From Siphonodentalium dalli (lineage: Eukaryota; Mollusca; Scaphopoda; Gadilida; Siphonodentaliidae), in contig CP136065.1 of NCBI GenBank assembly GCA_032622095.1, positions 242,461,530-242,525,529 on the forward strand: DNA of 64,000 bases. The letters run 5' to 3'. Numbering within the stretch: the first letter of the stretch is position 1; the number at the start of each line of letters is the position of its first letter. The notes beneath the pieces were generated by a model. The model had not been told where the DNA came from, ran no database searches, and worked only from the letters and a program-made list of their open reading frames with translations. Shown one piece after another: positions 11,385 to 57,089 of this stretch. The translations under genes and the position numbers were made by a program.

Positions 11385-12398
11385 CTTATGGTCCGGGGAA
11401 AGAAATAAAATGTGTGTTAATCGTAGTTTGATTGTGGAATTAGGTAGCCAGTCGCATTAGTGTGCCTGTATTCTCTTGTTCTTTTAGCATATTCATCTAT
11501 TTTGACTGCAGCATGTTGATGGTGGATTTGTGCATCATGAATAATCGAGCATGGTGCCTCCTGGACTGTAAAGAGTGCCATCTCAATTGATCTATCGTGT
11601 CTGATACGCTGGATGTTCTTCTGTATCTGTTGGTTGAGAGCATATCTAGCAGCGCGTCGTTGAACTTTCTCCAATGCATCTACATTCATGTCTGTATATA
11701 GGTCCCATACAGTCGGTGCATATTCAATTAATGGCCTTACCAAAGACTTGTATGCAGTCGCCTTCAGATGGTGAGAGCTTATCTGTAGATTTATCTTCAG
11801 AAAATTCAGCGTCCTGTTAGCCTTGGCAGCTGTATTATCTATGCTGATTCCATGACATATTTGATGTAATAGTCACTCCAAGATATTTTGTCTTCTGCAC
11901 CTTCTTTAATTGTATCACGTGGAGTGAGTATTCTGAATCAATAATATCCTGCGAATGGGTTATAGGCATTGCTTCGCATTTAGCTGGATTGAAGCTCATT
12001 TTCCATATATTCTCCCACTCTTCTAGTGATCTGATGTCCTTTTGCAGTTCCTCTGCATCTTCCGATGTATGTAAAGTCTTGTATAATAGAGTGTCATCGG
12101 CAAATTGTCTTACATTTGATTTTATTCCTTTATCGAGGTCAGTTATGTAGTAGAGGAACAGACTAGGTCCCAACTCAAATCCTCGTGGAACTACTGATGT
12201 AACTCTTCCTTCGTATGACTTCTCTCCATCTACTACAGCATTCTGTCTTCTATCTTGTAAGAAACTTCCTATCCAGTTGTTAGTTTTGCTATCAATTCCA
12301 TAGGTCTTCAGTTTATACAAGCATCGTACCATCAGATGTTGAGATTCTTGAATGATTAATGTAAATTGTGCTTCGTCATCAAATGACTCGCCACTCAT
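11385..12398 (-). pseudogene. Non-LTR retrotransposon reverse transcriptase, truncated and frameshifted
   Basis: The frame at 11835-12398 (187 codons) carries the RT core. It has K-L-K-T-Y-G-I, W-I-G-S-F-L-Q-D-R-R-Q, a degraded 'GVPQGSVLGP' block (V-V-P-R-G-F-E-L-G-P), F-L-Y-Y-I-T-D-L, and the catalytic F-A-D-D at residues 99-102. The thumb and C-terminal part follow in two frames at 11417-11743 (R-P-L-I-E-Y-A-P-T-V-W-D; R-R-A-A-R-Y; then R-R-T-S-S-V-S-D in the other frame), so at least one frameshift is present. The end '...YFFPRTIS' runs exactly into the transposon target site. The 5' part of the RT, including the first catalytic aspartate block, is deleted, so this is a dead copy. Jockey/CR1-like is inferred from motif style. 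Confidence 0.85.
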
Positions 12399-13409
12399 AC
12401 TCCTTGTGTTGATGCATAACAGTTAATATCCAATTATTGCCACAAACATATTATACTAAAAGCAAAGATATTAACTCCGTTTTCGCGACCGTTTTCCTTT
12501 GAGTACGTTTTTTTACGCAATACAATCTTAATTATGCGAGCAAGCATGATATGACACGACCATGTGCAGCTGTGTCCAATGTAGTTGTTCGTGGCCACTG
12601 AAACGCTCTTTTTTGTATACACAATTGTGATAAACACTCTTTATGTTATTGGTTTGCCATACATTTCGCGCACTTAGTTAATATTAATATTCTTCCACAA
12701 ATGTGTTTGGGCGGGCTGTTAGTAACATATACACACATCACTGCCAAGTGCAGGTGTCAATTGATCTACATGTGTGCTTGTAGATACAGCACTTACACAC
12801 TGTGTAAACACCGCCTAAGTCAGACAATGTCAGTAGCTGTCAGCAGGTAAACGGTCTGCGGTTTGTAACGACCATTCCTGACGCTCTTTATGTCATTAAT
12901 AATTAAGCGGAACGCTCGTTATGTGTACATCGTTTGTTATCATGACTTCGTGTTTACTAATGCATATCGATAGCGCATAGCCGCTCTGGGCGCTGGTCGC
13001 GAGACACAGGTTTGCACGCACTGATGGTGTGGAATACAGTACGTTCGTATACTGTGAATGGTTTTCATTTCTTCGGCATCCGGCATCAATTTTCGTTGTT
13101 TCCAGTAAATGGCAATTTTGTGGGAACATGGATAGGATAGCGTCTGGATAGCTGCGTTATGGGCAGAATTACTAGATCCTCTCTGGCAAATTTGATATTT
13201 GTACATTGATGAGGAATAGGAAGAAGATTTTAACATAAATTTGTATGGTGAAATAGTTGCCGATTACCACGATGAACACCCCCCCCCCCCCCGAATTAGA
13301 TTGGGATATTGCCATTGAAATGGCAGAAAGAGATGACGGATGACGAAGATGAAGGGATTTGAAGAGTTGTAGCCTCCCTCTCCACAACCTACCCAACAAG
13401 GTTCTTTTA
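12399..13409. other. Unassigned spacer with repeated CGCTCTTTA-like motifs
   Basis: No coding similarity is recognised. Variants of AACGCTCTTTA lie at about 12602, 12638, 12879 and 12908. A run of about a dozen C residues sits at 13279-13292. Confidence 0.45.
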
Positions 13410-13475
13410 AGAACCAACCAAAAAGTTAAAGATAGTACCCAACTACCCCCTCCTGGGGTGGTTCTCCAGTGCTTG
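13410..13475 (+). repeat. 5' portion of a tRNA-derived SINE, cut by the mirror element
   Basis: The stretch ending 'ttctccagtgcttg' aligns with the 'cctccagcgctgg' region of the complete SINE at 22120-22429 (minus strand) and continues at 20586 with 'tgatatgggtttaattcc'. The exact 5' start is uncertain. Confidence 0.6.
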
Positions 13476-13857
13476 ATGATACCCACCCCAGTTGGCCCCC
13501 AGTTCAGGAACGATAACTCTATCCGACCTATACTCCGCAGTACTCCAGTCTAGACAGTTTGACCTACATTCTCTGCAGTACATGGAGTTTGACCTATATT
13601 CTCCGCCCACGCGTCGGTCTACTTGTACCGGTTGGACATGTCCGGACATGACCCGCTGGTTATATCCAGATTTCTCCATATGAATGGTATATTATCTACA
13701 TGTATATCACGTGATGATCTCGGTGTAGTAGCTTCAGTCTTGAATATTAAAGGTATACTAGTCTCTCACGGGGGGATGATTATTAAAGTGACACTCACTA
13801 TGGATGAATGTTAAAGTAACACATGGCGCACACTGTGGGATAATGTTAAAGTGACAC

Positions 13858-14115
13858 TCGCATTGAAAACTTCCAAAAAGTTCAAAAAGGTCAAAAAGTT
13901 CAAAAAGTTCAAAAAGGTCAAAAAGTTCAAAAAGTTCAAAAATTTCAAAAAGTTCAAAAAGTTCAAAAATTTCAAAAACTTACAAAATTTCGAAAAACTT
14001 CAAAAACTTCAAAAAATTTCAAAAACTTCAAAAACTTCACAAATTTCACAAACTTCACAAATTTCACAAATTTCACAAATTTCACAAATTTCACAAATTT
14101 CAAAAAACTTTAAAA
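13858..14115. repeat. ttcaaaaag / ttcacaaat tandem repeat, left arm
   Basis: About 25 imperfect 9 bp units change from ttcaaaaag to ttcaaaaac to ttcacaaat. The open frame through it is an artefact of a 9 bp period. The partner is at about 19955-20200. Three copies of a 'gttaaagtgacactc'-like motif lie just outside (13780-13860). Confidence 0.85.
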
Positions 14116-14116
14116 A

Positions 14117-14345
14117 TTAAACAAAATTCAGGATTTAGTCATAAATGTGACCCGCTATATCAAATCCAGTCGAAAGTCGGGATTTTTTTTTATCCTGTGC
14201 CAATGCATTCTCTTATATATGCGAGTCACATTTAAACAAAATTCAGGATTTAGTCATAAATGTGACCCGCTATATCAAATCCAGTCGAAAGTCGGGATTT
14301 TTTTTTATCCTGTGCCAATGCATTCTCTTATATATGCGAGTCGAC
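14117..14345. repeat. Two tandem copies of a 117 bp block, present once in the other arm
   Basis: The block starts 'taaacaaaattcaggattta' and ends 'cttatatatgcgagtc'. It occurs at 14117-14226 and 14233-14342 here, but once (about 19848-19952) in the right arm. It includes 'ttcaggatttagtca', which occurs a third time near 14429. Confidence 0.85.
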
Positions 14346-14430
14346 CAGCCACCGCCGGCGGCGGCGGCGGCGGCAACTACATAATCCTATGGCATGCAAA
14401 GAAATTGGCGCCGGCGCTGCCGCCGGCGGT
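14346..14430. repeat. GC-rich ccg/cgg hairpin block, left arm
   Basis: A cgg run ('caccgccggcggcggcgg') and a second block ('ggcgccggcgctgccgccgg') lie downstream of the ATPase gene. Each can fold on itself. The partner is at about 19760-19845. Confidence 0.6.
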
Positions 14431-14566
14431 TCAGGATTTAGTCAAAAATATGGCTTGTTTCCATTCATCGGAAAGCTATGGGGGTACGGTGGTGAGCGCC
14501 ACTGAAAAAAGCAAGTGAGCGAGGGAAAAAAGAGAAAAATAACATGACAAGTAGTACATAGTACAA

Positions 14567-14572
14567 TTTATT
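14567..14572 (-). terminator. Polyadenylation signal, left ATPase gene
   Basis: AATAAA on the minus strand, 8 bp after the stop codon. The right copy is at 19617-19622. Confidence 0.5.
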
Positions 14573-14579
14573 ATATTAA

Positions 14580-16304
14580 CTATTCACAGTCACTTTCGTC
14601 CGAATTGTCATCACTTTCGTCAGATGTGTCATTTGTTTCGTCCATGAACTTTTCTAGCAATGGTCTGTACTTTAATATTGACATTTTCACTGCATCACGA
14701 TCTTCAAAACCATTCTTCATATATTTCTCCACTTTATCCATGACACTGTTGTGCAGCGTACCATTGCGCAGCCACATATTCTTTATTATTGTCCAAGCAT
14801 AAACATTCATAAATAGCCTCATGCCTTCAGTTTTAAGATCTGTACTTTTAAGGTCCTTGTCAGCTTGTACTTTTGCCTCTTTTTCTGTCGAGCCATTTTC
14901 CATATACGTTTCCACGTTATCACTCCATGCTTCTTGTGCTTTATCTCTACTCTCATCACACAAACTTTTGAAGTATTCATCTTCATTCGATTTAATTTTC
15001 TTATTCTGACTATCATCCGTGTCCTCAGTTAATTTTCGTTTTAACTTATTTTCTTGACACCAGTTTTTTACGTGTCTCTGGACATCATGCTGATCTTCGA
15101 ACAAAAGCCCACAGTCATTGCAAGGGTACGACATGTCTTCTCGAATGCCTATGTTTTTATGGTTTTCTTTATTAATTTCATTGATCTCACCAGGTGTCCT
15201 TATGTCCTTAGTATAGCCATTATGTTGACCCTGGGGCACACTATAATTATATGTCATGCACTCCCGTTGACCAGGGAGATCTCTGTCATCATATTTCATC
15301 TCATTCCGTTGATCCGGGCTATTGTTGTCATCACATTTCACCACATTCTGTTCATCTGGGTGCTCGCTGTCCTTATGGAGATTATATTTCATGCCATTCC
15401 ATTCACCCATATGTTGGTTCGTGTCCTCTTTTAGCACATTCTGTCGCAGCCGTAATGTGTCCGGGGTTGCGGCTTTTAAATCCACCAGTAGGTAACCGTA
15501 CGGTTCACTCGTCGCTTCCGAAAACTCTCGCATCATACGTTGAGGGCATTCAGGATACATCTGTCTTGATAATGTTGAAATTAAACCCTTGTCAATTGGA
15601 TTATTGAACAATACCAAATATTGACAATTTCGTCGTTGCGTCGGATCCTTGTTGTAGTAGAAATTCTGGTTCAAACTTATCAAAGATAAGTTCAAATGGT
15701 GACTTCCTTCGGAATGTAAATCATTAACTCTCTGGTCTTTTGATGAAGTTTGCATCAAGTCATCGAGTACAACTAGATTTTTATACTGGGGGTTGATAAG
15801 AGAATCCAAGTTTGCTGGTATTCCCCGTATAAAGTTGACCTGAGGGGTGACGGTATACTTTATGTCATCATATAGGGGCTGCCAATATTTATAAAACCAT
15901 ATTATTCTGTCAGGTGCGGGTGATATTTTTGAGGCAGACTTTTGTAGCAAGGTTTTCACGAAGTACGTCTTCCCACTAGATGTTGGTCCACTTACACATG
16001 CCGTGAATGGATGCTTGAAAATAAAATATTCTTGGACATTGGCCATTGAATCATCAAAGCAGGATGTTATGTCGCTTTGTTGCTGTTTCCCCTGCTGGTG
16101 TTGTAGTATCTGGTGTTGCTGTAATGGCGGTTGTTGTGGCTGATGATGCTGCTGCCTGTTGCTGCTGCTGCTGTTTGTTGCTGCTGCTTGGTGGTGCTGC
16201 TGTGGGTGTCGGTTAACAAACTCAGTGTGCTTAGATTGTACATGTCTTATCAAATCATGGTTCCGCACATACTCACTAGAGCAAATTGAACACTGGTGCT
16301 TCAT
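14580..16304 (-). CDS. Zinc-finger P-loop ATPase, viral DNA-packaging type (left copy, intact)
   Basis: A 574-residue frame. It opens with a C2H2 finger (C5, C8, H21, H26) and a Gln/His-rich linker (34-80). The ATPase core follows: Walker A G-P-T-S-S-G-K-T at 106-113, W-F-Y-K-Y-W-Q-P-L-Y near 136-145, Walker B V-V-L-D-D with acidic residues at 181-182, then G-S-H-H-L-N-L, L-S-L-I-S-L-N-Q-N and P-Y-G-Y-L-L-V-D-L. A second finger-like C2HC (C395, C398, H411, C416) and an Asp/Ser/Glu-rich tail end it. The order of blocks matches FtsK/HerA (A32-like) packaging ATPases of Polinton/adintovirus-like elements, abundant in invertebrate genomes. The role is motor-driven DNA packaging or an equivalent, by inference. 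An AATAAA on the coding strand lies at 14567-14572. Confidence 0.78.
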   Translation of the reverse strand: MKHQCSICSSEYVRNHDLIRHVQSKHTEFVNRHPQQHHQAAATNSSSSNRQQHHQPQQPPLQQHQILQHQQGKQQQSDITSCFDDSMANVQEYFIFKHPFTACVSGPTSSGKTYFVKTLLQKSASKISPAPDRIIWFYKYWQPLYDDIKYTVTPQVNFIRGIPANLDSLINPQYKNLVVLDDLMQTSSKDQRVNDLHSEGSHHLNLSLISLNQNFYYNKDPTQRRNCQYLVLFNNPIDKGLISTLSRQMYPECPQRMMREFSEATSEPYGYLLVDLKAATPDTLRLRQNVLKEDTNQHMGEWNGMKYNLHKDSEHPDEQNVVKCDDNNSPDQRNEMKYDDRDLPGQRECMTYNYSVPQGQHNGYTKDIRTPGEINEINKENHKNIGIREDMSYPCNDCGLLFEDQHDVQRHVKNWCQENKLKRKLTEDTDDSQNKKIKSNEDEYFKSLCDESRDKAQEAWSDNVETYMENGSTEKEAKVQADKDLKSTDLKTEGMRLFMNVYAWTIIKNMWLRNGTLHNSVMDKVEKYMKNGFEDRDAVKMSILKYRPLLEKFMDETNDTSDESDDNSDESDCE

Positions 16305-16461
16305 TTATACTTGACTAAAATATCTCGGGGGTATATGGCTTTCCTTTATACAAATGTTCCTTATAACCTCAAATCTGTCCTGTATTAACGGCGGCGGCGT
16401 TTGCCGACGGCGTTTTTTTCCACCGGCCTTTCAATAGCCTTCGAAAATTTAGGTAAATTAC

Positions 16462-16683
16462 TCATTTTAGTTCAGTGAATATGTCGTTTGGAGTTTTCTT
16501 TTTAACTTTTCCAATGTTTGTCTTCTTCGCTCTTCCTCCTTTTATCTCTTTAACTTTTATCTTCTTAGATCCGGGTTTCCTTATAAGTTTTTCAGGTTTC
16601 ACTTCAGTCTCGGGTAGGTACTTCGAGTCATCGTAGGGTACATATTTTTTAAGATCAAAGTCATAATAGTGCGGAGTCCCCAT
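16462..16683 (-). CDS. Small lysine-rich protein of the mirror element (left copy)
   Basis: A 73-residue frame beginning M-G-T-P-H-Y-Y-D-F-D-L. The C-terminal half is strongly basic with many Lys and few hydrophobic residues. It sits between the TATA box (16722-16729) and the ATPase gene on the same strand. The right copy has an identical sequence, so the frame has been kept. I do not recognise a family. A DNA-binding or core-like packaging protein would fit its charge and position beside a packaging ATPase, but that is inference. Confidence 0.6.
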   Translation of the reverse strand: MGTPHYYDFDLKKYVPYDDSKYLPETEVKPEKLIRKPGSKKIKVKEIKGGRAKKTNIGKVKKKTPNDIFTELK

Positions 16684-16721
16684 TCCGGCTAAAGTTCAAA
16701 GTGTACTCTGAAGTAGTAATT

Positions 16722-16729
16722 TTTATATA
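16722..16729 (-). promoter_or_regulatory. TATA box, left copy
   Basis: TATATAAA on the minus strand, about 40 bp upstream of the small-protein ATG at 16683. It is mirrored exactly at 17460-17467. Confidence 0.55.
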
Positions 16730-16794
16730 CGCCAAAATACCATCCAAGACGTATACCCTTATAAACTACGGGTCAGTCCTAGTAACGCGCACGT

Positions 16795-16884
16795 CAACGC
16801 CGCCGGCGGCGCCGCCGGCGGCGGCGGCGGCGGCGGCGTATGCGGCGGCGGCGGCGGCGTCTGTTGTTGTTGTAGTTGTTGTTG
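16795..16884. repeat. GC-rich gcc/ggc repeat at the inner end of the left arm
   Basis: Self-complementary gccgccggcggc blocks, then cggcgg and ttg repeats. The partner is at 17299-17395, which is slightly longer. Alanine-rich frames through these tracts are not genes. Confidence 0.75.
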
Positions 16885-17298
16885 TTCACATGTTCAAACT
16901 TCCTGCATTATATACAAGGACGACAGGGACGTGGCGACAGGGGGCTGGGATGTCTGCCCCCACCCTCAACTTTGATAGCAATAAGTTGAAAATGTCATGC
17001 CCGACACATTAGTTGGAATTTTACACCACATGTAGGTTGAACTTGTTTCATTGTCTGATTTTCCAACATGTTATTAGTGTGAAATTTGTAGTTTTTAGAC
17101 CAATAATAGTCTGAAATGATGTCCATCCGTCTGTTGGAAATTTAGATTAGACATTTCAAACTGTTCGAACGTTTGAGGTACCAACTTTCCAACCTAAGGG
17201 AGGAGGTGCAAATATGGTATTTGGTATCGGAGTTTGGTCTGGTTGAAGGAGGGGGTGGTGCAATTGGAAATCACTCATAATTGCAATGACATTTGTAT
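16885..17298. other. Single-copy centre of the mirror element
   Basis: 414 bp that is not mirrored. I recognise no gene in it. It holds two purine-rich stretches ('gggaggaggtgcaaat', 'gaaggagggggtggtgc'). It may be the remnant of the interior of a larger parent element. Confidence 0.6.
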
Positions 17299-17459
17299 CA
17301 ACAACAACTACAACAACAACAGACGCCGCCGCCGCCGCCGCCGCCGCATACGCCGCCGCCGCCGCCGCCGCCGGCGGCGCCGCCGGCGGCGTTGACGTGC
17401 GCGTTACTAGGACTGACCCGTAGTTTATAAGGGTATACGTCTTGGATGGTATTTTGGCG

Positions 17460-17467
17460 TATATAAA
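17460..17467 (+). promoter_or_regulatory. TATA box, right copy
   Basis: TATATAAA about 40 bp before the ATG at 17506. Confidence 0.55.
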
Positions 17468-17505
17468 AATTACTACTTCAGAGTACACTTTGAACTTTAG
17501 CCGGA

Positions 17506-17727
17506 ATGGGGACTCCGCACTATTATGACTTTGATCTTAAAAAATATGTACCCTACGATGACTCGAAGTACCTACCCGAGACTGAAGTGAAACCTGAAAA
17601 ACTTATAAGGAAACCCGGATCTAAGAAGATAAAAGTTAAAGAGATAAAAGGAGGAAGAGCGAAGAAGACAAACATTGGAAAAGTTAAAAAGAAAACTCCA
17701 AACGACATATTCACTGAACTAAAATGA
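17506..17727 (+). CDS. Small lysine-rich protein of the mirror element (right copy)
   Basis: Identical 73-residue product to the left copy. The ATG at 17506 lies about 40 bp after TATATAAA (17460-17467), a normal distance for an early-type promoter with a very short leader. It is followed after about 155 bp by the ATPase gene, which has its own TATAAA (17838-17843). Confidence 0.6.
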   Translation: MGTPHYYDFDLKKYVPYDDSKYLPETEVKPEKLIRKPGSKKIKVKEIKGGRAKKTNIGKVKKKTPNDIFTELK

Positions 17728-17837
17728 GTAATTTACCTAAATTTTCGAAGGCTATTGAAAGGCCGGTGGAAAAAACGCCGTCGGCAAACGCCGCCGCCGT
17801 TAATACAGGACAGATTTGAGGTTATAAGGAACATTTG

Positions 17838-17843
17838 TATAAA
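17838..17843 (+). promoter_or_regulatory. Possible TATA box of the ATPase gene
   Basis: TATAAA in 'tgtataaagg', 41 bp before the ATPase ATG at 17884. The left arm has the mirror of this site. Confidence 0.4.
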
Positions 17844-17883
17844 GGAAAGCCATATACCCCCGAGATATTTTAGTCAAGTATAA

Positions 17884-19609
17884 ATGAAGCACCAGTGTTC
17901 AATTTGCTCTAGTGAGTATGTGCGGAACCATGATTTGATAAGACATGTACAATCTAAGCACACTGAGTTTGTTAACCGACACCCACAGCAGCACCACCAA
18001 GCAGCAGCAACAAACAGCAGCAGCAGCAACAGGCAGCAGCATCATCAGCCACAACAACCGCCATTACAGCAACACCAGATACTACAACACCAGCAGGGGA
18101 AACAGCAACAAAGCGACATAACATCCTGCTTTGATGATTCAATGGCCAATGTCCAAGAATATTTTATTTTCAAGCATCCATTCACGGCATGTGTAAGTGG
18201 ACCAACATCTAGTGGGAAGACGTACTTCGTGAAAACCTTGCTACAAAAGTCTGCCTCAAAAATATCACCCGCACCTGACAGAATAATATGGTTTTATAAA
18301 TATTGGCAGCCCCTATATGATGACATAAAGTATACCGTCACCCCTCAGGTCAACTTTATACGGGGAATACCAGCAAACTTGGATTCTCTTATCAACCCCC
18401 AGTATAAAAATCTAGTTGTACTCGATGACTTGATGCAAACTTCATCAAAAGACCAGAGAGTTAATGATTTACATTCCGAAGGAAGTCACCATTTGAACTT
18501 ATCTTTGATAAGTTTGAACCAGAATTTCTACTACAACAAGGATCCGACGCAACGACGAAATTGTCAATATTTGGTATTGTTCAATAATCCAATTGACAAG
18601 GGTTTAATTTCAACATTATCAAGACAGATGTATCCTGAATGCCCTCAACGTATGATGCGAGAGTTTTCGGAAGCGACGAGTGAACCGTACGGTTACCTAC
18701 TGGTGGATTTAAAAGCCGCAACCCCGGACACATTACGGCTGCGACAGAATGTGCTAAAAGAGGACACGAACCAACATATGGGTGAATGGAATGGCATGAA
18801 ATATAATCTCCATAAGGACAGCGAGCACCCAGATGAACAGAATGTGGTGAAATGTGATGACAACAATAGCCCGGATCAACGGAATGAGATGAAATATGAT
18901 GACAGAGATCTCCCTGGTCAACGGGAGTGCATGACATATAATTATAGTGTGCCCCAGGGTCAACATAATGGCTATACTAAGGACATAAGGACACCTGGTG
19001 AGATCAATGAAATTAATAAAGAAAACCATAAAAAACATAGGCATTCGAGAAGACATGTCGTACCCTTGCAATGACTGTGGGCTTTTGTTCGAAGATCAGC
19101 ATGATGTCCAGAGACACGTAAAAAACTGGTGTCAAGAAAATAAGTTAAAACGAAAATTAACTGAGGACACGGATGATAGTCAGAATAAGAAAATTAAATC
19201 GAATGAAGATGAATACTTCAAAAGTTTGTGTGATGAGAGTAGAGATAAAGCACAAGAAGCATGGAGTGATAACGTGGAAACGTATATGGAAAATGGCTCG
19301 ACAGAAAAAGAGGCAAAAGTACAAGCTGACAAGGACCTTAAAAGTACAGATCTTAAAACTGAAGGCATGAGGCTATTTATGAATGTTTATGCTTGGACAA
19401 TAATAAAGAATATGTGGCTGCGCAATGGTACGCTGCACAACAGTGTCATGGATAAAGTGGAGAAATATATGAAGAATGGTTTTGAAGATCGTGATGCAGT
19501 GAAAATGTCAATATTAAAGTACAGACCATTGCTAGAAAAGTTCATGGACGAAACAAATGACACATCTGACGAAAGTGATGACAATTCGGACGAAAGTGAC
19601 TGTGAATAG
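17884..19609 (+). pseudogene. Zinc-finger P-loop ATPase, right copy, frameshifted
   Basis: It is the mirror copy of the left gene. The first 383 codons match and include the first zinc finger, Walker A, Walker B and the whole ATPase core. At 19030-19035 the run of A is six long where the left copy has five (15154-15158). The frame is therefore lost, and the left copy's C-terminal 190 residues (second finger and acidic tail) lie in another frame (18998-19609). The truncated product would end at 19074. Since only the finger and tail are affected, a shortened ATPase could still be made. A homopolymer sequencing error is the main alternative. The stop of the long frame (19607-19609) is followed by AATAAA at 19617-19622. 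Confidence 0.75.
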
Positions 19610-19616
19610 TTAATAT

Positions 19617-19622
19617 AATAAA
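19617..19622 (+). terminator. Polyadenylation signal, right ATPase gene
   Basis: AATAAA 8 bp after the stop at 19607-19609. Confidence 0.5.
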
Positions 19623-19954
19623 TTGTACTATGTACTACTTGTCATGTTATTTTTCTCTTTTTTCCCTCGCTCACTTGCTTTTTTCAGTGGCGCTCACCAC
19701 CGTACCCCCATAGCTTTCCGATGAATGGAAACAAGCCATATTTTTGACTAAATCCTGAACCGCCGGCGGCAGCGCCGGCGCCAATTTCTTTGCATGCCAT
19801 AGGATTATGTAGTTGCCGCCGCCGCCGCCGGCGGCGGTGGCTGGTCGACTCGCATATATAAGAGAATGCATTGGCACAGGATAAAAAAAAATCCCGACTT
19901 TCGACTGGATTTGATATAGCGGGTCACATTTATGACTAAATCCTGAATTTTGTT

Positions 19955-20200
19955 TAATTTTTAAAGTTTTTTGAAATTTGTGAAATTTGTGAAATTTGTG
20001 AAATTTGTGAAATTTGTGAAGTTTTTGAAGTTTTTGAAAATTTTTTGAAGTTTTTGAAGTTTTTCGAAATTTTGTAAGTTTTTGAAATTTTTGAACTTTT
20101 TGAACTTTTTGAAATTTTTGAACTTTTTGAACTTTTTGACCTTTTTGAACTTTTTGAACTTTTTGACCTTTTTGAACTTTTTGGAAGTTTTCAATGCGAG
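19955..20200. repeat. Tandem 9 bp repeat, right arm
   Basis: Inverted partner of the left-arm tandem with fewer of the aaatttgtg-type units. Confidence 0.85.
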
Positions 20201-20585
20201 TGTCACTTTAACATTATCCCACAGTGTGCGCCATGTGTTACTTTAACATTCATCCATAGTGAGTGTCACTTTAATAATCATCCCCCCGTGAGAGACTAGT
20301 ATACCTTTAATATTCAAGACTGAAGCTACTACACCGAGATCATCACGTGATATACATGTAGATAATATACCATTCATATGGAGAAATCTGGATATAACCA
20401 GCGGGTCATGTCCGGACATGTCCAACCGGTACAAGTAGACCGACGCGTGGGCGGAGAATATAGGTCAAACTCCATGTACTGCAGAGAATGTAGGTCAAAC
20501 TGTCTAGACTGGAGTACTGCGGAGTATAGGTCGGATAGAGTTATCGTTCCTGAACTGGGGGCCAACTGGGGTGGGTATCATCAAG

Positions 20586-20835
20586 TGCTTGTGATATGGG
20601 TTTAATTCCCGATGGAGTCATCGTGGACTTTGTACCTCAAATCGCTATCTGGGGGAGGTGTCAGTTACTCGCCGATAGTTGGTGGTTTCGCCGTGCACAA
20701 TGGCTCATTCTTTCAGCCAATGAAATCACTGCCAGATTTTCCTAAGTGAACCAGTAAAACTGGTAAACGTCGTGATATAGCCATAACTGCTGAAAGCGAC
20801 GTTAACACACCAATCGATCAATCAATCAATCGAAA
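20586..20835 (+). repeat. 3' portion of a tRNA-derived SINE, cut by the mirror element
   Basis: It continues the SINE from 13475. It has the box B 'gggtttaattcc' at 20598-20609, the body shared with the SINE at 22120-22429 ('atcgtggactttgta', 'cagttactcgccgat', 'gtcgtgatat') and an 'atca' repeat tail at about 20812-20832. Together with 13410-13475 it is one element split by the later insertion. Confidence 0.8.
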
Positions 20836-21646: not shown

Positions 21647-22520
21647 TTATTCTGCGAAATTTTCTTGGAGGTGGTTGCGAACAGATGACCGGATTATTGC
21701 TTGTTGAACTTGATTTCCAAAGTTAAATTCAAATTTACCACCAGAAATATTGGCACCGGCGAACATTCCTCTGACAACATATTCACTTTCAAGTTCTGGA
21801 TTTCCAGCAGATTGAACATTCTCATCAGATTGAACCAAAATGCGTTTGGCGATTGTTTTTTCAGCAGTAGTACTCGTACTTGGGCCTTGTATTGCAAGTG
21901 CCCTTTTATTACTGAAATTGTTTTGTAAAACATTGCACATGTCCCGTTGTTGCTCAATACTTGCGATTGCATAATTGTTCAGACTATTCACATTCTTATG
22001 TCCAGAAAGTTGCGTTATCGTCAGTGGATCAAAACCGGCATGCACCAAATTTGTGATGTATGTTTTTCGTAACGAGTGATTCATGATATTGCCTTCCACG
22101 CAAGCATTCTTGCCAAGTGATTGATTGATTGATTGGGGTTTATTGTCGCTTTAGCCACTAAGGCCATATCACGACATTGCCAGTTTTAGTGGTGGAGGAA
22201 ATCCGCACACTTGCGACTAATCTAGCAGTGATTTCAATGGCTGATAAACTCGTCGACCATGTGCGGCAAACCACCGGCCATCGGCGAGTAACTGGCAACT
22301 CCACCAGATAACGATTTCGAGTTACAAAGTCCACGATGGAAACATGTGGATTTGAACCCTTATCGCCAGCGCTGGAGGGCGAAACGGCTTGGAGTGGTAC
22401 CCCTAACCGATTGAGCCACCGATGCCCCCTTCTTGCCAAGTGTATTTACTCCAACTGGTTGTGCTTTATACCACAACTGTTTCGGTATATTGTGTTGGCG
22501 AAAAGCACTATTTATTCCCA
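21647..22520 (-). pseudogene. Crypton-type tyrosine recombinase, C-terminal remnant split by a SINE
   Basis: The downstream piece (21647-22119) encodes the catalytic C-terminal half. N-H-S-L-R-K-T gives the H-x-x-R of tyrosine recombinases (H8, R11 of the frame starting at 22099). Q-L-S-G-H-K-N gives the second His (H34), and L-N-N-Y-A the nucleophilic Tyr (Y43), followed by Q-Q-R-D-M. The upstream piece (22443 to about 22520) encodes L-F-Y-L-G-I-N and L-W-Y-K-A-Q-P-V-G-V-N-T-L-G-K, the segment expected just before. Between them sits a 310 bp SINE. The spacing of H-S-L-R-K-T and S-G-H-K-N-x-x-S is typical of the YR genes of animal Cryptons and their domesticated relatives. The N-terminal half is not found, so the copy is inactive. 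Confidence 0.8.
22120..22429 (-). mobile_element. tRNA-derived SINE, 310 bp, with 13 bp target duplication
   Basis: On the minus strand it starts 'gggggcatcggtggctc'. Box A-like 'tggctcaatcggttagg' is at 22402-22418 and box B-like 'gggttcaaatcc' at 22348-22359. It ends in a repeat of 'atca' (22120-22135). It is flanked by TTCTTGCCAAGTG at 22107-22119 and 22430-22442. RNA polymerase III transcription from the internal boxes is expected for such elements. Confidence 0.88.
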
Positions 22521-27759: not shown

Positions 27760-29318
27760 TCATACATGTGCACGAGCCAGACCTATTAGTGTAGTGACTT
27801 AGCGAAAAAAAAATGGCATATTGGAACGGACTGGCCAAAAGTGCCATTTTTTATATTATGTCAAGTTAGGTGTGCTCTTTCAGAAAGTGAACTAGAAACA
27901 GGTTTCTGATAAATATTAACCTTTATTTCCAGTATAAATCCAAGATGGCGAAATCATTATTTCACCATGACGTTCCAACTGGTATACAATTTAAGGCACA
28001 TGCATAATGAAGGCGTCATTCCATCCGGCATTGTCATATTTTGAAGATATTAACAATCCAGGCTGACCAAATTTGAAAATTATCACCTTTTGGACCAAAA
28101 GCATTAAATTTTGTCATAAAATCATTCTCGTTTCAATTATTCCGGAATAATAAACAGACAATTTCTCAAAAATGTTTCAGTGTAGATCAAAGGTTAAGAT
28201 TTTTTTCAGAAATATATACTGCAAACAAAATATTCAACATCTAGGACACATTCGTAACCATATTTTAGACATTTTGGATTGTGTTAGCCCTCACCCCAAA
28301 AATCATGAAATTTTGTTTTTGTAATAAACATCCGATAGAACATGGATGATAATCTATAAAGGGCACTATCAGATCACATTTCTAAATTCTGAAATTGCAA
28401 TTACACATACAATGACCAAAGTTGAAATTTACAACTTTTTCGACTAAAATATGCAATTTGGTAAGAAAATCCTCGTCATTTCAAATACTTTGGTCCAATA
28501 AATGGTCATTTACACATAGGATATTTGCGATAGTTCAAAATGTTCGGTCTTAAATATTTTGGACATATATACTGAAAACAATGAATACATTTTCTGTGGT
28601 TAATATTTCAGAATATTTGGTTTATGTTACCCCTCACCCCAAAAATCACGAAAATGTGACTTGGTTGTAAAGATTGAATACATCTTTGGTTAAATCTGAT
28701 AAAGTGAGTTTGTCGATGACAATTAGTCATATATTGTTATGTAACAATCTCATTGACAGTATACTGGTTAAATTTACAATTGTATGACTAATAACAGCTA
28801 TATTTTAAGGTAAAATAACCATAATTTCAAATATTTTCAACCAATATATGGGCAATTTCTCACACATTTCCCAAGATCGTATAGCACATGCGGCCTTGAA
28901 AGTTTCGAAAATTACTTTCGAATACAACACATTTAAAGGTGTATGCATGTCATGTCTTGGTGAAATAGAATAAAATTCTAAAAATCTATTATACCATAAA
29001 TAATTTGAAGGTGTTGACTTATATAATATACAAATGTAGCATACAAGATGGGGTATATATAGACATGTATTTCATATCACAACTTTAATTTGTCTATCAA
29101 TAATACACATAACATAAAGATGGTCTATCTTTGTTTATACTCTGTTCTTAAATTCACGTTTGTTATGTTGTACCTGTATAACTATAATGTGCACAGTCTG
29201 ATCATACCAGCGGATATATAGCAACTCATAGATTGTCATGTTATAATCACCGGTGACCATGTTGATACATTGAACAAATATTTTAGGCATTCTTAATATC
29301 ACAATTACAACTGCATAA

Positions 29319-32740: not shown

Positions 32741-33708
32741 ATATGACGAATTGCGATCGACAAACTCACTTTATAATAATTAACCAAAGATTTATTGAAT
32801 CCTTGCAACAAGTCACATTTTCGTGATTTTTGGGGATGAGGGGTAACATAAACCAAGTTTTCTGAAACGTTGTTACATATTAAACACATACAATGTATTC
32901 ATCGTTTTCAGTATATATGTCCAAAACATATAAGACCGAACATTTTATCATATGAGTAAATGACCATTTATTGGACCAAAATATTTGAAATGAAGAGGAT
33001 TTTCTTACAAAATTGCATATGTTTTGTCGAAAAAGATGTTATATTTCAACTTTGGTCATTGTGTATGTAATTGCCATTGCAGTATTTAGAAATGTGATCA
33101 AATAGTGTCCTTTATAGATTCTCATCCATGTTCTATCGGATGCTTATCACAAACACAATATTTCATTATTTTAGGGGTGAGGGGTAACATAATCCAAAAT
33201 TTATAAAATACGGTTAAGAATGTGTTCTAGATATTGTATGTTTTGATTAGAGTATACATGTCCAAAAATGCTAAGACCTTAACCTTTGATCTACACTGAA
33301 ACATTTTTGAGAAATTATCTGTTTATTATTCCGAAATAATTGAAACGAGAATGATTATATGACAAAATTGCATGTTTTTGGTACAAAACGTGATAAATTT
33401 CCAATTTGGTCAGCCTGGGTTGCTACTATCTTCATAATATGACAACGTCAGGTTGAATGACGCCTTTAGTATGCATGCGCATTAAATTTTATACCAGTTG
33501 GAACGTCAGGGTGAAATAATGATTGAATTTGACCGCCATCTTGGATTTATACTGGAAACAAGGGTTAATATTGATCAGAAACCTTTTTCTAGTTCACTTT
33601 CTGAAAGAGCACACATAACTTGACAAAATATATTTTTAAAATGGCTCTTTTGGCCAGTCCGTTCCAAAAAAAACGCTAAGTCACTACACTATATAGTCTT
33701 TTATGGCC

Positions 33709-42613: not shown

Positions 42614-42865
42614 TTTCGGGCTCGCTATAATTGTTAAAGATCACTATCATGAAATATATGACTTTTCCGACATATAGATACGGATGAACGATAATCCCAA
42701 GAATTTTCAATGCAATGCCTCTGAACATTACATCACACACATGCAATTACATACTATAAGCGTGACTTATAGGCCCCAAGTGGCCGGGTGCAATATCATT
42801 ATTTGTTTGTGTAATATATTTATGTATTGTAGATGCACATGAGTAGTATAGTCTACGTTTTCTAG

Positions 42866-45161
42866 TAGATGGTTTGACTTGACTTTGCTCCACTCCTGAT
42901 CCTGAGCTAACCGGGGTTTATAGGTCACGCCGCGTGGGTGTATATATCGGTGAAGGTTATCGCCATAATAACGCGTGGCGGGTACGTCTAGGTCAAGGAC
43001 GAACAAAATAATTCCGCAACAAGCGGGCCGAGGTTATCACGAGAATAGCGCCTAATTATTGCGGGTACTAAACAATGCGTGTATATATGTCTAAATGATA
43101 TCTCTCTCGTGTTAACCCTACCGCTTATCGCATATTCATGTAATATGAAAGAAAATATGTACTCGGGTGACTGCTATCAGAGGTATATATTAATCACGAG
43201 AATAACTCGCCAGCGTTGCGCGCGGTAGCGATAAACCAGATCGCGTGTACTATACACAGTGGTACATAATATATGTATTGGTTTGACTGCCTAAACCCTA
43301 AGCGCCTAATCCTGAGCTATCAGGATGGTGTTATATGTCACGCCGCGTGGGTGTATATGGGCGAAGGTTATCACGATAATAGCGCCTCATTATCGCGGGT
43401 ACTAAACAATGCGTGTATATCTAAACGATATATCCCGCGCGTTAACCCTACCGCTTATCACCTGCGTTTCCGATAAACGATATATCCATCGCGTTAACCC
43501 GAGAGCTTATCGCCTATCAATGTAATATGAAATAAAATAGGGTGTGTGTACTAGGGATATAGGTTATCCGCAGTATTTGATCAAGGTATATATTAATACG
43601 CGGGTATATAATCGTAAGTATTTGTTTTTTTGTCACGGAAGTAAAAGCATTATTGAAGACTTCCAATAGACTATATCTGAGAAATTTCTCGCGCACAAAT
43701 TCTATAGTTATAGTTATTATAATATAGTGATTATTGTAAGCCTAATAAATCTGATAACAGGGATATACTAATGCACTATACGGTCTGGCAGTTCTTTCCA
43801 TGGTTCAACAAAGAAACCTCTTCAATATTTATCCGGCACCTCATGGGGGGGGGGGGGTGTTACTTCACCGAGAATCCCTATTACCACACCCAAATATTGA
43901 TATAGTGGTATGTCTCCACCCACACCCCTATATTTATGTCTATGTTGATGCGTGTATACATATTTACTTAATGTATTCTTTAATCATTCATTTCTCTTTA
44001 TTATCGTTCATTTATAGCATTATTAGAAGAAATTTAGTCTAAAATCTCCATTACATAGAGACAATAAAGAGCCCATATGGTGTAGACTAATACATAAATA
44101 CTTACTTCATATATTCGTTTCACCAATTATATGTATTGTACATCCTTTACATTTAGTCTGTTATACAGAGGAAACAAAGCATATACTACGTGGCAGTTTT
44201 ATATGACGATAAGACCTACTATGTGAACACATGTGCATATTAATTTCACATATTCTTCTCAAAACGCTTTATTTTATACGGGGATATCAAACATTGGTCT
44301 GGAAAAGGCCTGCTATGTGGACGCGCGTATACATATTGACTTCATATATACATTCATAGTTCATTTCTCTTAATTATCGTTCATTTAATATCATTATTAG
44401 TAGAAATATAGTCTAAAACCGTCGGTATATGGAGAATATATAGCGTCAATACTGTTTTATTGTTGGTAACATCAAATTATTGCATCATATATCGCAACTA
44501 AACAAGCGAGACAACTCATAAATTCTTAATAGTTCTGATGTCTATGGCAGTTCACAGAGTGTATATTTTCATTGTTGTTACCATTTTAGTGCATACATTA
44601 CTGATTTCTGTGTAAGAACGCTGGTCTCCATTGTTGTTATGATTGTGCCTATAACTGTCCATATTCTTAAAGCAAGTACGGTACCTCTATGTGATATGAT
44701 GTATAAATATTTCCATTTTCATAGGTAAATCACGTATAAACGCTCTTTAATGTATAGTTAAACTGAGTTTTCACATGCAGGGCTATGTCTTTGTGGACTA
44801 TATACGTGGTATACTTCAGTATATACACGAAGTGAATGTGTTCTAAGTATGCGTATCTGATTTATGTATACGTCCGTGTTTCTTAAAGCAAATCCAATAC
44901 ACATTAGTGCGTTATATTATGATGTACATTAAGTGCCCTTTTCACTGTTAAATCAAGTAAAAAAGCCCTCTACTATAGTTAACTATTCAGTTCCACATAC
45001 GCTATAAGCTCTATGGTGGTCCGGTGTGTCTTATCAATATGCCATTATATGCACGAATGTAATGTGTTCAAATATGTGGGTTATGATGTATACTTTAATG
45101 TTAAAGTATATAAGCACTCTTTAAGATATGCATATGCAGAATGTTGCCTCTTTACACTGAC
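42866..45161. repeat. 2.3 kb unit A, left arm
   Basis: From 'tagatggtttgac' to 'cctctttacactgac', about 98% identical to unit B. It contains an internal degenerate duplication around 'cctgagctaac/atcagg...cacgccgcgtgggtgtatat' (42900-43160 and 43310-43540) with 'ttaaccctaccgcttatcgc' twice, and a G run near 43845. Confidence 0.85.
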
Positions 45162-45165
45162 TCGG

Positions 45166-47455
45166 GTAGATGGTTTGATCATGATTTGCTCCCCTCCTGA
45201 TCCTGAGCTAACCAGGGTTATAGGTCACGCCGCGTGGGTGTATATATCGGTGAAGGTTATCGCCATAATAACGCGTGGCGGGTACGTCTAGGCCAATGAC
45301 GAACAAAATATTTCGGCAACAAGTGAGCGACGGTTATCACGAGAATAGCGCCTAATTATTGCGGGTACTAAACAATGCGTGTATATATGTCTAAATGATA
45401 TCTCTCTCGTGTTAACCCTACCGCTTATCGCATATTCATGTAATATAAAAGAAAATATGTACTCGGGTGACTGCTATCAGAGGTATATATTAATCACGAG
45501 AATAACTCGCCAGCGTCGCGCGCGGTAGCGATAAACCAGATCGCGTGTACTATACACAGTGGTACATAATATATGTATTGGTTTGACTGCCTAAACCCTA
45601 AGCGCCTAATCCTGAGCTATCAGGGTGGGGTTATATGTCACGCCGCGTGGGTGTATATGGGCGAATGTTATCACGATAATAGCGCCTCATTATCGCGGGT
45701 ACTAAACAATGCGTGTATATCTAAACGATATATCCCGCGCGTTAACCCTACCGCTTATCGCCTGCGTTTCCGATAAACGATATATCCATCGCGTTACCCC
45801 GAGAGCTTATCGCCTATCAATGTAATATGAAATAAAATAAGGTGTGTGTACTAGGGATATAGGTTATCCGCAGTATTTGATCAAGGTATATATTAATACG
45901 CGGGTATATAATCGTAAGTATTTGTTTTTTTTGTCACGGAAGTAAAAGCATTATTGAAGACTTCCAATAGACTATATCTGAGAAATTTCTCGCACACAAA
46001 TTCTATAGTTATAGTTATTATAATATAGTGATTATTGTAAGCCTAATAAATCTGATAACAGGGATATACTAATGCACTATACGGTCTGGTAGTTCTTTCG
46101 ATGGTTCAACATAGAAACCTCTTCAATATTTATCCGGCACCTCATAGGGGGGGGGGGGTGTTACTTCACCGAGAATCCCTATTACCACACCCAAATATTG
46201 ATATAGTGGTATGTCTCCACCCACACCCCTATATTTATGTCTATGTTGATGCGTGTATACATATTTACTTCATGTATTCTTTAATCATTCATTTCTCTTT
46301 ATTATCGTTCATTTATAGCATTATTAGAAGAAATTTAATCTAAAATCTCCATTACATAGAGACAATAAAGAGCCCATATGGTGTAGACTAATACATAAAT
46401 ACTTACTTCATGTATTCGTTTCACCAATTATATGTATTGTACATCCTATACATTTAGTCTGTTATACAGAGGAAACAAAGCATATACTACGTGGCAGTTT
46501 CATATGACGATAAGACCTACTATGTGAACACATGTGCATATTAATTTCACATATTCTTCTCAAAACGCTTTATTTTATACGGGGGTATCAAACATTGGTC
46601 TGGAAAAGGCCTGCTATGTGGACGCGCGTATACATATTGACTTCATATATACATTCATAGTTCATTTCTCTTAATTATCGTTCATTTAATAGCATTATTA
46701 GTAGAAATATAGTCTAAAACCGTCGGTATATGGAGAATATATAGCGTCAATACTGTTTTATTGTTGGTAACTCAAATTATTGCATCATATATCGCAACTA
46801 AACAAGCGAGACAACTCATAAATTCTTAATAGTTCTGATGTCTATGGCAGTTCACAGAGTGTATATTTTCATTGTTGTTACCATTTTAGTGCATACATTA
46901 CTGATTTCTGTGTAAGAACGCTGGTCTCCATTGTTGTTATGATTGTGCCTATAACTGTCCATATTCTTAAAGCAAGTACGGTACCTCTATGTGATATGAT
47001 GTATAAATATTTCCATTTTCATAGGTAAATCACGTATAAACGCTCTTTAATGTATAGTTAAACTGAGTTTTCACATGCAGGGCTATGTCTTTGTGGACTA
47101 TATACGTGGTATACTTCAGTATATACACGAAGTGAATGTGTTCTAAGTATGCGTATCTGATTTATGTATACGTCCGTGTTTCTTAAAGCTAATCCAATAC
47201 ACATTAGTGCGTTATATTATGATGTACATTAAGTGCCCTTTTCACTGTTAAATCAAGTAAAAAAGCCCTCTACTATAGTTAACTATTCAGTTCCACATAC
47301 GCTATAAGCTCTATGGTGGTCCGGTGTGTCTTATCAATATGCCATTATATGCACGAATGTAATGTGTTCAAATATGTGGGTTATGATGTATACTTTAATG
47401 TTAAAGTATATAAGCACTCTTTAAGATATGCATATGCAGAATGTTGCCTCTTTAC
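45166..47455. repeat. 2.3 kb unit B, left arm
   Basis: Tandem copy of unit A, starting 'tagatggtttgatcatg'. The right-arm partners are at about 51986-54275 (B) and 54281-56577 (A). Confidence 0.85.
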
Positions 47456-47677
47456 ACTGACAGAAAAAAAAAGGAATATATAATTTTGAGTACTACTCTT
47501 CATAAAACGTTAGAAAACCATAATCTAACAACGAATATCGAAGAACAATGTAATTACTTGATAAGCATTATAAATATTTCGTCTGTTTTAAATAAAATGG
47601 AAATATTTCGTCTATTTGAAATACAGTTGGAAGCAACAATCAAGTATTTAAATGAAATTTGGACCAAAATCTTATAA
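47441..47677 (+). other. 78-codon open frame of unknown meaning, inner arm
   Basis: A frame with Lys/Glu/Ile/Leu-rich helical composition (M-E-I-F-R-L-F-E-I-Q-L-E-A-T-I-K-Y-L). Its mirror at 51764-51997 has the same sequence. There is no recognised family, and it may be chance in AT-rich DNA. Confidence 0.2.
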
Positions 47678-48179
47678 TTTGAGAAAACGTATATAATTTC
47701 TATCGAAGTCTTATAATAAAGGAAGGCTTTATGCGAATCCATTCGGTCTAATGTGTGAATGTGTTCATCATCGCAAATATAATGATGCAGAAATTAATAC
47801 TTCCTAGAAAAATGTTAACATAGCCTGTATTTAACCGAAATAATATAGCATTTGAGTTAAAATATTTCATATTAGGACCATAACGAACCAATGCATAAAA
47901 ATATAATATTTAGTTTTTCAGTCTCGATCAAAATAATGCAGGGTTGTCAATTATCAACAAAAAAACAAATACTTTGAAATAAAAACGATGACATAAGAAC
48001 GAATATCCAAGAGCTAGTGTGAAAATAACCCTCACATTTATAAAAAAAAAACAATAAAAATTCAGTTGTCGAGTCAGTCCTTCAAAATTATTGAATGTTT
48101 TCGTATATGTTGGATCAAATTTAACACAAAAATCAATTAGCTCACTAACAGTTCGCGCAATATCTCATATTTTGAGAAA

Positions 48180-49330
48180 ACGTTTACAATTTTAGACAAC
48201 AATATTGCTAGTAAAGGTGAATATTTCATCCTGGAATTCATGAAATATGATAAAAATAGATGTAAAGACACTTCACGAGCCCTCATATCTTTGAGTTATG
48301 AACATAAAGTTATCTCATAGTGCCATTGTACCCCATAATTTGGTCAGGAGAAATATGTATTTCATATTTGACCCTTCATCTATGGTAAAAAATGAATTAA
48401 GGGACATGGGAGTGGTGTCCTACACATTAACCTAGAGCATAAATTGACTCAATTTTACAATTTTAGGCAACATTCTTGCCAGGGAAAGTGTATATATCAT
48501 GTTGGAACTCATCAAATGTGATAAACATGCATCAAAAGACACTTACTGAGTTCTGATGACTTTGAGTTATGACAACAACGGCATCTCATACTAGATTGTA
48601 AGCCATAATTTGGTCAGGAAAAGTGTAAATTTCATATTTTATCCTACAAGTGTTTTAACAATCAATGTAATTACACCCCATCGGTCGCCTAGACACAGCG
48701 TAAATGTTCTCAAGTTTTCAACTGTAGGCCACAATGTCGGTAGTGAAGGTAAACATTTCATGTTGGAACCCATGAAATGTCTTTTTATCCATTTTATCAC
48801 ATTTCATGAGTACTTATCACGGAGTTATGAACATAAAGGGACCTCATAGTGTATTGTAGGTTATAATTTGGTCAGGAAAATTGTAAATTTCATGTCTTAA
48901 GCTCCATGTGTTTAAAAAATATATTTAATTACAGCCATTGGGTCCCTAGATATCAACCCACAGTCCATATGTAGTCCATATGCAATTTTAGGGAACAGTG
49001 TTGCTAGTGAAGGTGAACATTCCATGCCGGAACTCATGAAATATGATAAAAATAGATGAAAAGACACTTTCTGAGGCCTTGGTCAGGAGAAATGTGTGTT
49101 GTATTTTGACCCTTGATGCGTGGTAGCAATCAATGAAATTACACCCCATGGTATCCTCAGATATGAAGCAACATCATAAATGCACTCAGTTTTGGCAATT
49201 TAGAAAACATTGTTGATAGGGAAGTTGTACATGTCATGTTGGAACTGGTGAAATGTGATAATAATTGATCAAAAGACACTCGATGAGCCCTGATGGGTTT
49301 CAATTATGGTCATAAAGGCATCTGATAGTG
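48180..49330. repeat. About five degenerate 265 bp tandem units, left arm
   Basis: Each unit has 'caattttaggcaacatt', 'catgttggaactcatgaaat', 'aaaagacact', 'gagttatg(a)acataaag' and 'ataatttggtcaggaaaa'. The mirrored array is at about 50111-51261. Confidence 0.85.
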
Positions 49331-49553
49331 TCATTATACAACGGGGAAATTTGTGAAGCGCTAACAAAGCGTATCTACACGGTGTTATACGATCCAAAAT
49401 GATCCTGATATAAGAAATGCAATCTAGATCATACTCAGTATCTTCGTATCGACTGAATATATCGTTATTCGATGGTGATCCCGACATACCTCCGTCTTTA
49501 CTTTTCTTATGCCTTTGTAGATTGTAGTTCGTCGATAATATATTTCTGAACAA
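49269..49553 (-). CDS. 94-codon frame next to the palindrome centre (left copy), unrecognised
   Basis: It encodes a small protein with a polar N-terminus and a hydrophobic, Cys-containing middle (Y-I-R-I-I-L-D-R-I-T-P-C-R-Y-A-L-L-A-L-H). The identical frame is at 49888-50172 on the plus strand, so the two copies are transcribed away from the shared centre. The last third overlaps the 265 bp array, which weakens the case for a real gene. There is no known family. Confidence 0.3.
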   Translation of the reverse strand: MFRNILSTNYNLQRHKKSKDGGMSGSPSNNDIFSRYEDTEYDLDCISYIRIILDRITPCRYALLALHKFPRCIMTLSDAFMTIIETHQGSSSVF

Positions 49554-49706
49554 ATGGCACCCGTGTATTATCTCGAATCATGGGAAGAACTATCGTCCTT
49601 ATACCAGCGAAAAGATGAGCGAATATGGTGTGGTATTATCAACTCGCCGCGCTCGTACCTCTATTTATCGTTTAGAGTTATTGTTCTTAGATAAAAAATA
49701 GGCGCG

Positions 49707-49734
49707 CGTGCGGCCCCCTCATCCCCACTGCCGC
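49707..49734. other. Loop of the giant palindrome
   Basis: 28 nt with a C/G-rich composition. It is flanked by ggcgcg on the left and cgcgcc on the right, then by 'taggcgcg' and the AT-rich stem. Confidence 0.8.
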
Positions 49735-49887
49735 CGCGCCTATTTTTTATCTAAGAACAATAACTCTAAACGATAAATAGAGGTACGAGCGCGGCGAGTT
49801 GATAATACCACACCATATTCGCTCATCTTTTCGCTGGTATAAGGACGATAGTTCTTCCCATGATTCGAGATAATACACGGGTGCCAT

Positions 49888-50172
49888 TTGTTCAGAAATA
49901 TATTATCGACGAACTACAATCTACAAAGGCATAAGAAAAGTAAAGACGGAGGTATGTCGGGATCACCATCGAATAACGATATATTCAGTCGATACGAAGA
50001 TACTGAGTATGATCTAGATTGCATTTCTTATATCAGGATCATTTTGGATCGTATAACACCGTGTAGATACGCTTTGTTAGCGCTTCACAAATTTCCCCGT
50101 TGTATAATGACACTATCAGATGCCTTTATGACCATAATTGAAACCCATCAGGGCTCATCGAGTGTCTTTTGA
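49888..50172 (+). CDS. 94-codon frame next to the palindrome centre (right copy)
   Basis: Identical in sequence to the left copy. The region between the two ATGs (49554-49887) would be a shared bidirectional promoter if either is expressed. Confidence 0.3.
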   Translation: MFRNILSTNYNLQRHKKSKDGGMSGSPSNNDIFSRYEDTEYDLDCISYIRIILDRITPCRYALLALHKFPRCIMTLSDAFMTIIETHQGSSSVF

Positions 50173-54275: not shown

Positions 54276-54280
54276 CGAGT

Positions 54281-56577: not shown

Positions 56578-56623
56578 CTAGAAAATGTAGACTATACTAC
56601 TCGCATGTCACGTTAATAAAAGA

Positions 56624-56670: not shown

Positions 56671-57089
56671 AACCTGACAGTATCTATACACAGTGCAGAG
56701 AAACAATTGGAACCCCACCACCACAGAGGACCTGTGCTCACATCATGCTACAGAGATTTACGACCTGATATACTATAGCTAGCATAACTCCCACGTCATC
56801 ACAGCCATGGAGATATATTTATCGTGTGAAATAAAGAGAGGGGATCTAGCCAGGGGCGTGGTTAGAGGTTCTCCGTTGGGGGTGTCCCCTGAATCAGAAT
56901 CGGACCAAACACAAGTTTTGCATAATACCATCTGCAGCCCACCCTTACTGATGATGATTATACCGATGATGATTGTAATTATTATTATTATTATATATGC
57001 CTTTATTTCCGACGACGGTGATGTGATTTATATGATACTACTGAAAATGACAATGCAGACAATATATGACGATATGGACATAAAGTAAT
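56668..57089. other. Unassigned spacer
   Basis: A frame at 56807-57088 has an isoleucine run from att repeats and no motif; it is not called. Confidence 0.4.

Follow-up and report, generated by a model that had tools for sequence, protein, structure and literature searches.

A multi-copy family of mirror-image elements with a Polinton-type packaging ATPase in the genome of the scaphopod Siphonodentalium dalli

The window analysed here, a stretch of 64,000 nucleotides (nt) of contig CP136065.1 of the scaphopod mollusc Siphonodentalium dalli (assembly GCA_032622095.1, positions 242,461,530 to 242,525,529), carries a mirror-image element of 7,110 bp at 13474-20583. It consists of two near-identical inverted arms (13474-16886 and 17303-20583) on either side of a 416-nt centre, or loop (16887-17302). 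The initial annotation, made from the sequence alone, had described two outward-pointing arms around a unique centre of 414 bp; the mirror structure was confirmed, with a correction to the size of the centre. The termini of the element are TGATGATA..TATCATCA, i.e. TG..CA, and perfect copies of the hexamer AGTGCT adjoin it on the left (13468-13473) and on the right (20584-20589), as expected from the proposal that it was inserted as a single unit with a 6-bp target site duplication. A 6-bp match occurred in just one of 14 symmetric frames tried, and for position pairs drawn at random the frequency of such a match in any of these frames was 0.54%. GTGC, a 4-bp duplication that would put the ends at TTG..CAA, was the first candidate and gave way to the longer 6-bp frame.

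From the centre outward each arm contains a TATA-like motif, a gene for a basic protein of 73 amino acids (aa), a gene for a zinc-finger ATPase, an AATAAA signal, short tandem arrays and the terminal repeat. The left ATPase gene (14580-16304, minus strand) is intact and encodes 574 aa arranged as a C2H2 finger, a P-loop ATPase core, a second C2H2 finger and a helical tail; the right copy (17884-19609, plus strand) is frame-shifted about two thirds along, its first frame covering 17884-19074. The 73-aa frame is intact in both the left arm (16462-16683, minus strand; pI 9.8) and the right arm (17506-17727, plus strand), and a homologue search with its product found none. Polyadenylation-like AATAAA signals 3' of the left (14567-14572, minus strand) and right (19617-19622, plus strand) ATPase genes were read by eye, as was the TATA-like promoter motif of the left arm (16721-16730, minus strand). 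The left terminal repeat (13474-13772, plus strand), which starts with TGATGATACCC, is 299 bp long and was used as a query in the genome searches. Between the termini no further long frame was seen and no genes for protein-primed polymerase B, rve integrase, C5 protease or capsid were found, the Pfam scan having covered the ATPase, its right-arm tail and the 73-aa frame.

The arms differ by a 115-bp tandem duplication present in the left arm only (a 111-bp repeat at 14117-14342, of which the left arm has two copies and the right arm a single one), by 17 bp in a 9-mer tandem array (13866-14110, mirrored at about 19960-20190) and by 3 nt in a GCC array, to which are added two 1-nt length changes and a few substitutions inside simple repeats. 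GC-rich triplet islands with short palindromes were observed at the gene borders of the arm (16798-16859, 14352-14374 and 16389-16412, the third by eye).

The ATPase had been proposed to be of the viral packaging type, and both profile and structure comparisons agree. In Pfam it matched Pox_A32 above the cut-off (1.1e-5) and Adeno_IVa2 below it (0.005). An AlphaFold model of the protein had a mean pLDDT of 73, rising to 80-97 in the core blocks (residues 91-290), and its best match in the PDB was the B204 packaging NTPase of the archaeal virus STIV (2.9e-6). Compared with viral models it matched P-loop proteins, including many named A32-like and two IVa2 packaging ATPases. A packaging ATPase of the FtsK/HerA type, a feature of Polintons, or Mavericks, is present in the window element.

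A total of 185 relatives of the ATPase were found, and among the 120 listed the species names are mostly those of bivalves; two of the 120 come from bacterial bins which probably contain host DNA. Gene models in which such a relative is fused to other domains bear out the suggested link to Polintons and adintoviruses: one contains an rve integrase core (P0044), three an integrase-type chromodomain (P0041, P0069 and P0109), and one continues into an adenovirus-type protease, Peptidase_C5 (P0089). On contig L001, from a mussel-symbiont bin, a relative adjoins a PolB fragment on the opposite strand, the PolB match being below the Pfam cut-off (22.1 versus 25.8 bits). In a tree of 120 of the 121 rows the window ATPase is nested in this family as sister to P0035 (support 99/88), both on long branches. 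No relatives were found among IMG/VR contigs by protein and profile search, nor in phage records by tblastn; a 17-base terminal pattern occurred in three IMG/VR contigs, which by our estimate is about chance for so short a word.

The genome (2,226,750,531 bases in nine contigs) was searched with the ATPase, and 105 matches of 90-100% identity were scored among 4,007 first-look candidates; since the best candidates alone were scored, these counts are lower bounds. Neighbouring matches within 8 kb form at least 33 sets, all 33 of them head to head, of which 31 belong to the main family (the window's pair included) and two to a family at 90% identity. Twenty main-family pairs, the high-scoring ones of the 30 besides that of the window, were fetched. 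All 20 have the mirror form and the same centre, and they lie on eight of the nine contigs in other flanks. The centre is present over at least 407 of its 416 nt at 98.8-100% identity in 19 of the 20, and over 288 nt in the remaining one (L030). With the ends set at TGATGATA..TATCATCA, exact 6-bp duplications were found in 20 of the 21 elements (19 of the 20 fetched), representing 19 distinct sequences. The common centre and the individual duplications together identify the copies as independent insertions of one mirror architecture, as the initial annotation had foreseen for a self-standing mobile lineage. Because the same centre recurs in every fetched copy, the mirror form arose once in the main family and was inherited thereafter, and the one-off snap-back deletion form that had been suggested first is not supported; the alternative offered beside it, a lineage whose inverted repeats cover the coding region, matches the genome picture, and a snap-back origin long ago is possible. 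Parts of the centre are 69-73% alike to flank stretches of two fetched copies (L027:8421-8619 and L036:8835-8988), and judged from these likenesses the centre may harbour a dispersed repeat.

The two arms of an element are far closer to each other than to the arms of other elements. In the full set of 21 elements the two arms of an element were a median 0.096% apart, as against 1.42% for different elements, and 41 of 42 arms were closest to their own mate, the exception being one arm of L040. With L040 excluded the medians became 0.080% and 1.36%, and in 20 of 20 elements the distance between the arms was below every distance to other elements. With L040 left out, 434 element cells had the minor allele in both arms and 51 had it in a single arm (417 and 107 when L040 was included). 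Six of the 20 elements showed zero substitutions between their arms over the columns used. The arms therefore evolve in concert, having been either remade from each other at copying or converted later. If the arms are remade at each copying, their difference dates the insertion; with rates assumed to lie between 2e-9 and 5e-9 per site and year, the median insertion age would be 0.08-0.2 million years.

The ATPase gene is under purifying selection. Among the 42 arms the frame is 571-574 aa long in 36, 558 aa in two and shorter in four; in one element, L039, the same shortened frame occurs in the left and the right arm. For 20 intact frames, one arm each from 20 of the 21 elements, pN/pS was 0.246. 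Biallelic codons in these frames comprised 12 synonymous (nine singletons) and 15 non-synonymous ones (13 singletons), against a neutral expectation of 4.3 non-synonymous per synonymous, and the deficit is significant (p 0.002). Sampling of the best matches favours intact copies, which we do not think explains the shortage of non-synonymous changes by itself.

Mirror architecture extends beyond the main family. The two copies of the 90% family (L045:184-8724 and L046:436-8641) represent a second ATPase mirror family; they are also palindromes, with a different centre, and are related to the window element over the ATPase stretch (91.4-91.8% DNA identity over 1,795 columns), other matches being short or repetitive. 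Their ends are AGTAGTAT, and both fetched copies have exact 6-bp duplications (AATGTG and TATACA). These ends correspond to the Maverick-type (AGT)2 motif, AGTAGT; vertebrate Mavericks are described in PMC8097293 as having an (AG)3 or (AGT)2 end motif and 6-bp duplications. A second, non-coding palindrome occupies 42842-56601 of the window, with arms 99.7% alike, a 28-nt centre and no long frames. Its ends, AGTAGTATAG..CTATACTACT, are also of the Maverick type (AGTAGT), and its flanks CACATG and CGCATG agree at five of six positions, as do 0.64% of random 6-mer pairs. The terminal repeat of the main family was looked for in this palindrome and was absent.

The search with the 299-bp terminal repeat, aimed at a full-length relative, gave 40 scored matches of 1,418 candidates, including facing repeats 3.6 to 8 kb apart and six pairs at 14.1-14.4 kb. 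One 14.4-kb pair, on contig C9, was read over 10 kb in two pieces and proved to be a palindrome without a frame of more than 110 aa. The second palindrome of the window matches it at 97% identity in its inner part and has other ends, so that one interior is found under two kinds of ends. A two-segment arrangement, in which a 14-kb helper lacking the ATPase would accompany the window element, was considered and is ruled out for this one pair, which is palindromic and non-coding in the 10 kb examined. Two other pairs with the terminal repeat of the main family, L049 and L051, have in place of the ATPase an intact frame of about 203-205 aa that encodes a Bcl-2 homologue; for L049 the match to PF00452 was 1.1e-13. 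The gene is mirrored in L049 (frame L049:1563-2180), and in both loci it adjoins a remnant of the first zinc finger of the ATPase together with the 3' flank of that gene. At L050, a further pair of such terminal repeats, no frame of more than 73 aa was present within the stretch read.

The window element had been thought to lie within a SINE. This applies to its right flank, which is a SINE 74% identical to a second copy (aligned from 22377 to 22118); on the left the SINE head fits over 9 nt only, and the alignment of the whole flank is not above chance (p 0.26). A tyrosine recombinase remnant (PF00589) lies at 21647-22150. Elsewhere in the window a reverse transcriptase fragment (PF00078) was found at 11835-12422, an inverted repeat pair, 84-89% alike and about 5 kb apart, at 27952-28440 and 33031-33524, and a triplet microsatellite which reads as an aspartate-rich frame at 57061-57403.

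These results describe a lineage of self-mirrored, Polinton-like satellites rather than a one-off deletion form. We consider it probable that the window element, as a copy of this multi-copy mirror family, is a Polinton-like satellite moved by the enzymes of a helper, and that in every round a folded strand serves to rebuild one arm from the other. In such a cycle a related full-length Polinton would supply in trans the protein-primed polymerase and the rve-type integrase that work on the terminal repeats. The displaced single strand, self-complementary but for the 416-nt loop, would fold into a hairpin, and mismatch repair in the 3.3-kb stem, or the copying of one arm, would make the arms equal. 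The resulting duplex could then be packaged with the zinc-finger ATPase of the element, and perhaps its basic protein, before integration, after which the arms would diverge in the manner of long terminal repeats, their difference dating the insertion. That selection maintains a packaging ATPase where no other virus genes are present is most readily understood if packaging is part of how the element spreads. The element is not classified as a Polinton, since it lacks polymerase, integrase and capsid genes as well as Maverick ends; it is described here as having a Polinton-like insertion and a Polinton-type gene.

Several observations weigh against the helper-driven satellite. A helper encoding polymerase, integrase and capsid did not turn up, although no genome search for polymerase genes (PF03175) was completed, and the TG..CA termini of the window element are unlike the AG/AGT ends of vertebrate Mavericks. 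Among the 105 scored ATPase matches 39 had no scored mate, and the sole unpaired copy inspected, L052, is a one-armed remnant without the centre, broken near the promoter, in which the 73-aa frame is intact (L052:1-298). The fetched pairs, being high-scoring, favour young and intact copies, and L040 has lost one end and has one arm closer to another copy than to its mate. Of 68 core columns that hardly vary among its relatives, the window ATPase deviates at seven (median two), and at position 204 it has Leu in place of an Arg kept in 119 of 121 rows, a change shared by its sister P0035 alone. As judged from these residues its motor activity is not certain, and the loss of the arginine may have altered the motor. 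The same substitution, together with the absence of a capsid gene, would suit an ATPase that does not serve packaging, the element spreading within the genome only and the protein acting in its own DNA binding or transport. We regard this as improbable, given that the P-loop residues, both zinc fingers and the frame are retained and that the nearest fold is that of packaging NTPases. Finally, gene conversion in the chromosome would likewise keep the arms alike.

This last process is the core of another explanation, an ordinary mirror transposon with arms likely kept alike by chromosomal gene conversion and no hairpin step. Close inverted repeats convert readily, and the shared shortened frame of L039 is of the kind that conversion leaves, though it is expected under either process; against it, the elements without arm substitutions and the few differences in the others, largely length changes, fit young copies without conversion. 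We favour remaking of the arms at copying, and the ordinary transposon appears rather unlikely. A tentative possibility, given slightly more weight, is an animal adintovirus-like system divided among self-complementary mirror segments that have genes of their own, share their termini and pass through a hairpin in every cycle; its parent would be a virus that is either multipartite or accompanied by inherited snap-back satellites. Its segments would be that with the packaging ATPase and the basic protein, that with the Bcl-2 homologue and the non-coding 14-kb form. A single chromosomal event in which the second half of an ordinary element was replaced by its inverted first half, for example by fold-back repair, would have preserved the one target duplication, and a second long palindrome does lie in the same window; with the same centre in 20 of 20 copies elsewhere, 19 of them with exact duplications of their own, such an origin is very improbable. 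Long near-perfect palindromes are also a known class of assembly artefact, arising from a folded or chimeric read. Here the 115-bp duplication sets the arms apart, the ends are flush with the target duplications and the same form recurs on eight of nine contigs; because the 20 further copies have other flanks, an artefact is very unlikely, to the point of being negligible.

Foldback transposons consist of a small middle flanked by very long inverted repeats that contain short tandem repeats. The window family shares the long repeats and the small middle, and its 9-mer arrays bear a loose likeness to the tandem repeats; it differs in the viral ATPase of its coding arms, the 6-bp duplications and the concerted arms. 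PICIs are phage satellites that divert packaging, and they resemble the present family as small elements bringing their own packaging component; here the genome is eukaryotic, the ATPase is of the Polinton type and the form is a mirror, and a diversion of a helper would be hypothetical here. With Polintons/Mavericks, as defined in PMC8097293 and PMC4028283, and with adintoviruses, the window family has in common the packaging ATPase, terminal inverted repeats and exact 6-bp duplications; the second ATPase family (AGTAGT ends, 6-bp duplications in both copies) and the second palindrome (AGTAGT ends) are alike to Polintons in these further respects. The window element differs from them in its size (7.1 kb versus 15-20 kb), in the lack of polymerase, integrase, protease and capsid genes, in inverted repeats that span all but the centre, and in ending in TG..CA instead of their end motif. 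Snap-back subgenomes of AAV, as described in PMC8235507, are likewise mirrors of one genome end, include asymmetric forms with an unpaired loop, have prompted the idea of a satellite and, in the 3' forms, have head-to-head promoters. The mirror and the unpaired loop are present in the window element, and no longer parent was seen; the AAV forms are defective products beside the full genome in virus stocks, whereas here the lineage is integrated, inherited and multiplied. Ginger transposons share TG-type ends and an integrase-type insertion, but according to PMC2836005 they make 4-bp duplications and end in TGTNR, in contrast to the 6 bp, the TGATG terminus and the absence of a transposase frame in the window element. 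No description of mirror Polintons was found in the titles and abstract openings of a literature sample largely lacking subscription papers.

Virus replication is known to yield mirror, or snap-back, genomes as faulty products; in S. dalli one such form makes up a lasting, multiplying lineage with a selected packaging gene and arms that are renewed together. If the split system were the true one, every inserted copy would start with two identical arms, and the satellites would supply genes for packaging and survival. If the helper-driven satellite is correct, the family would document hairpin replication in inherited form, every insertion carrying its own clock, and would give a handle on whether animal Polintons still make particles.

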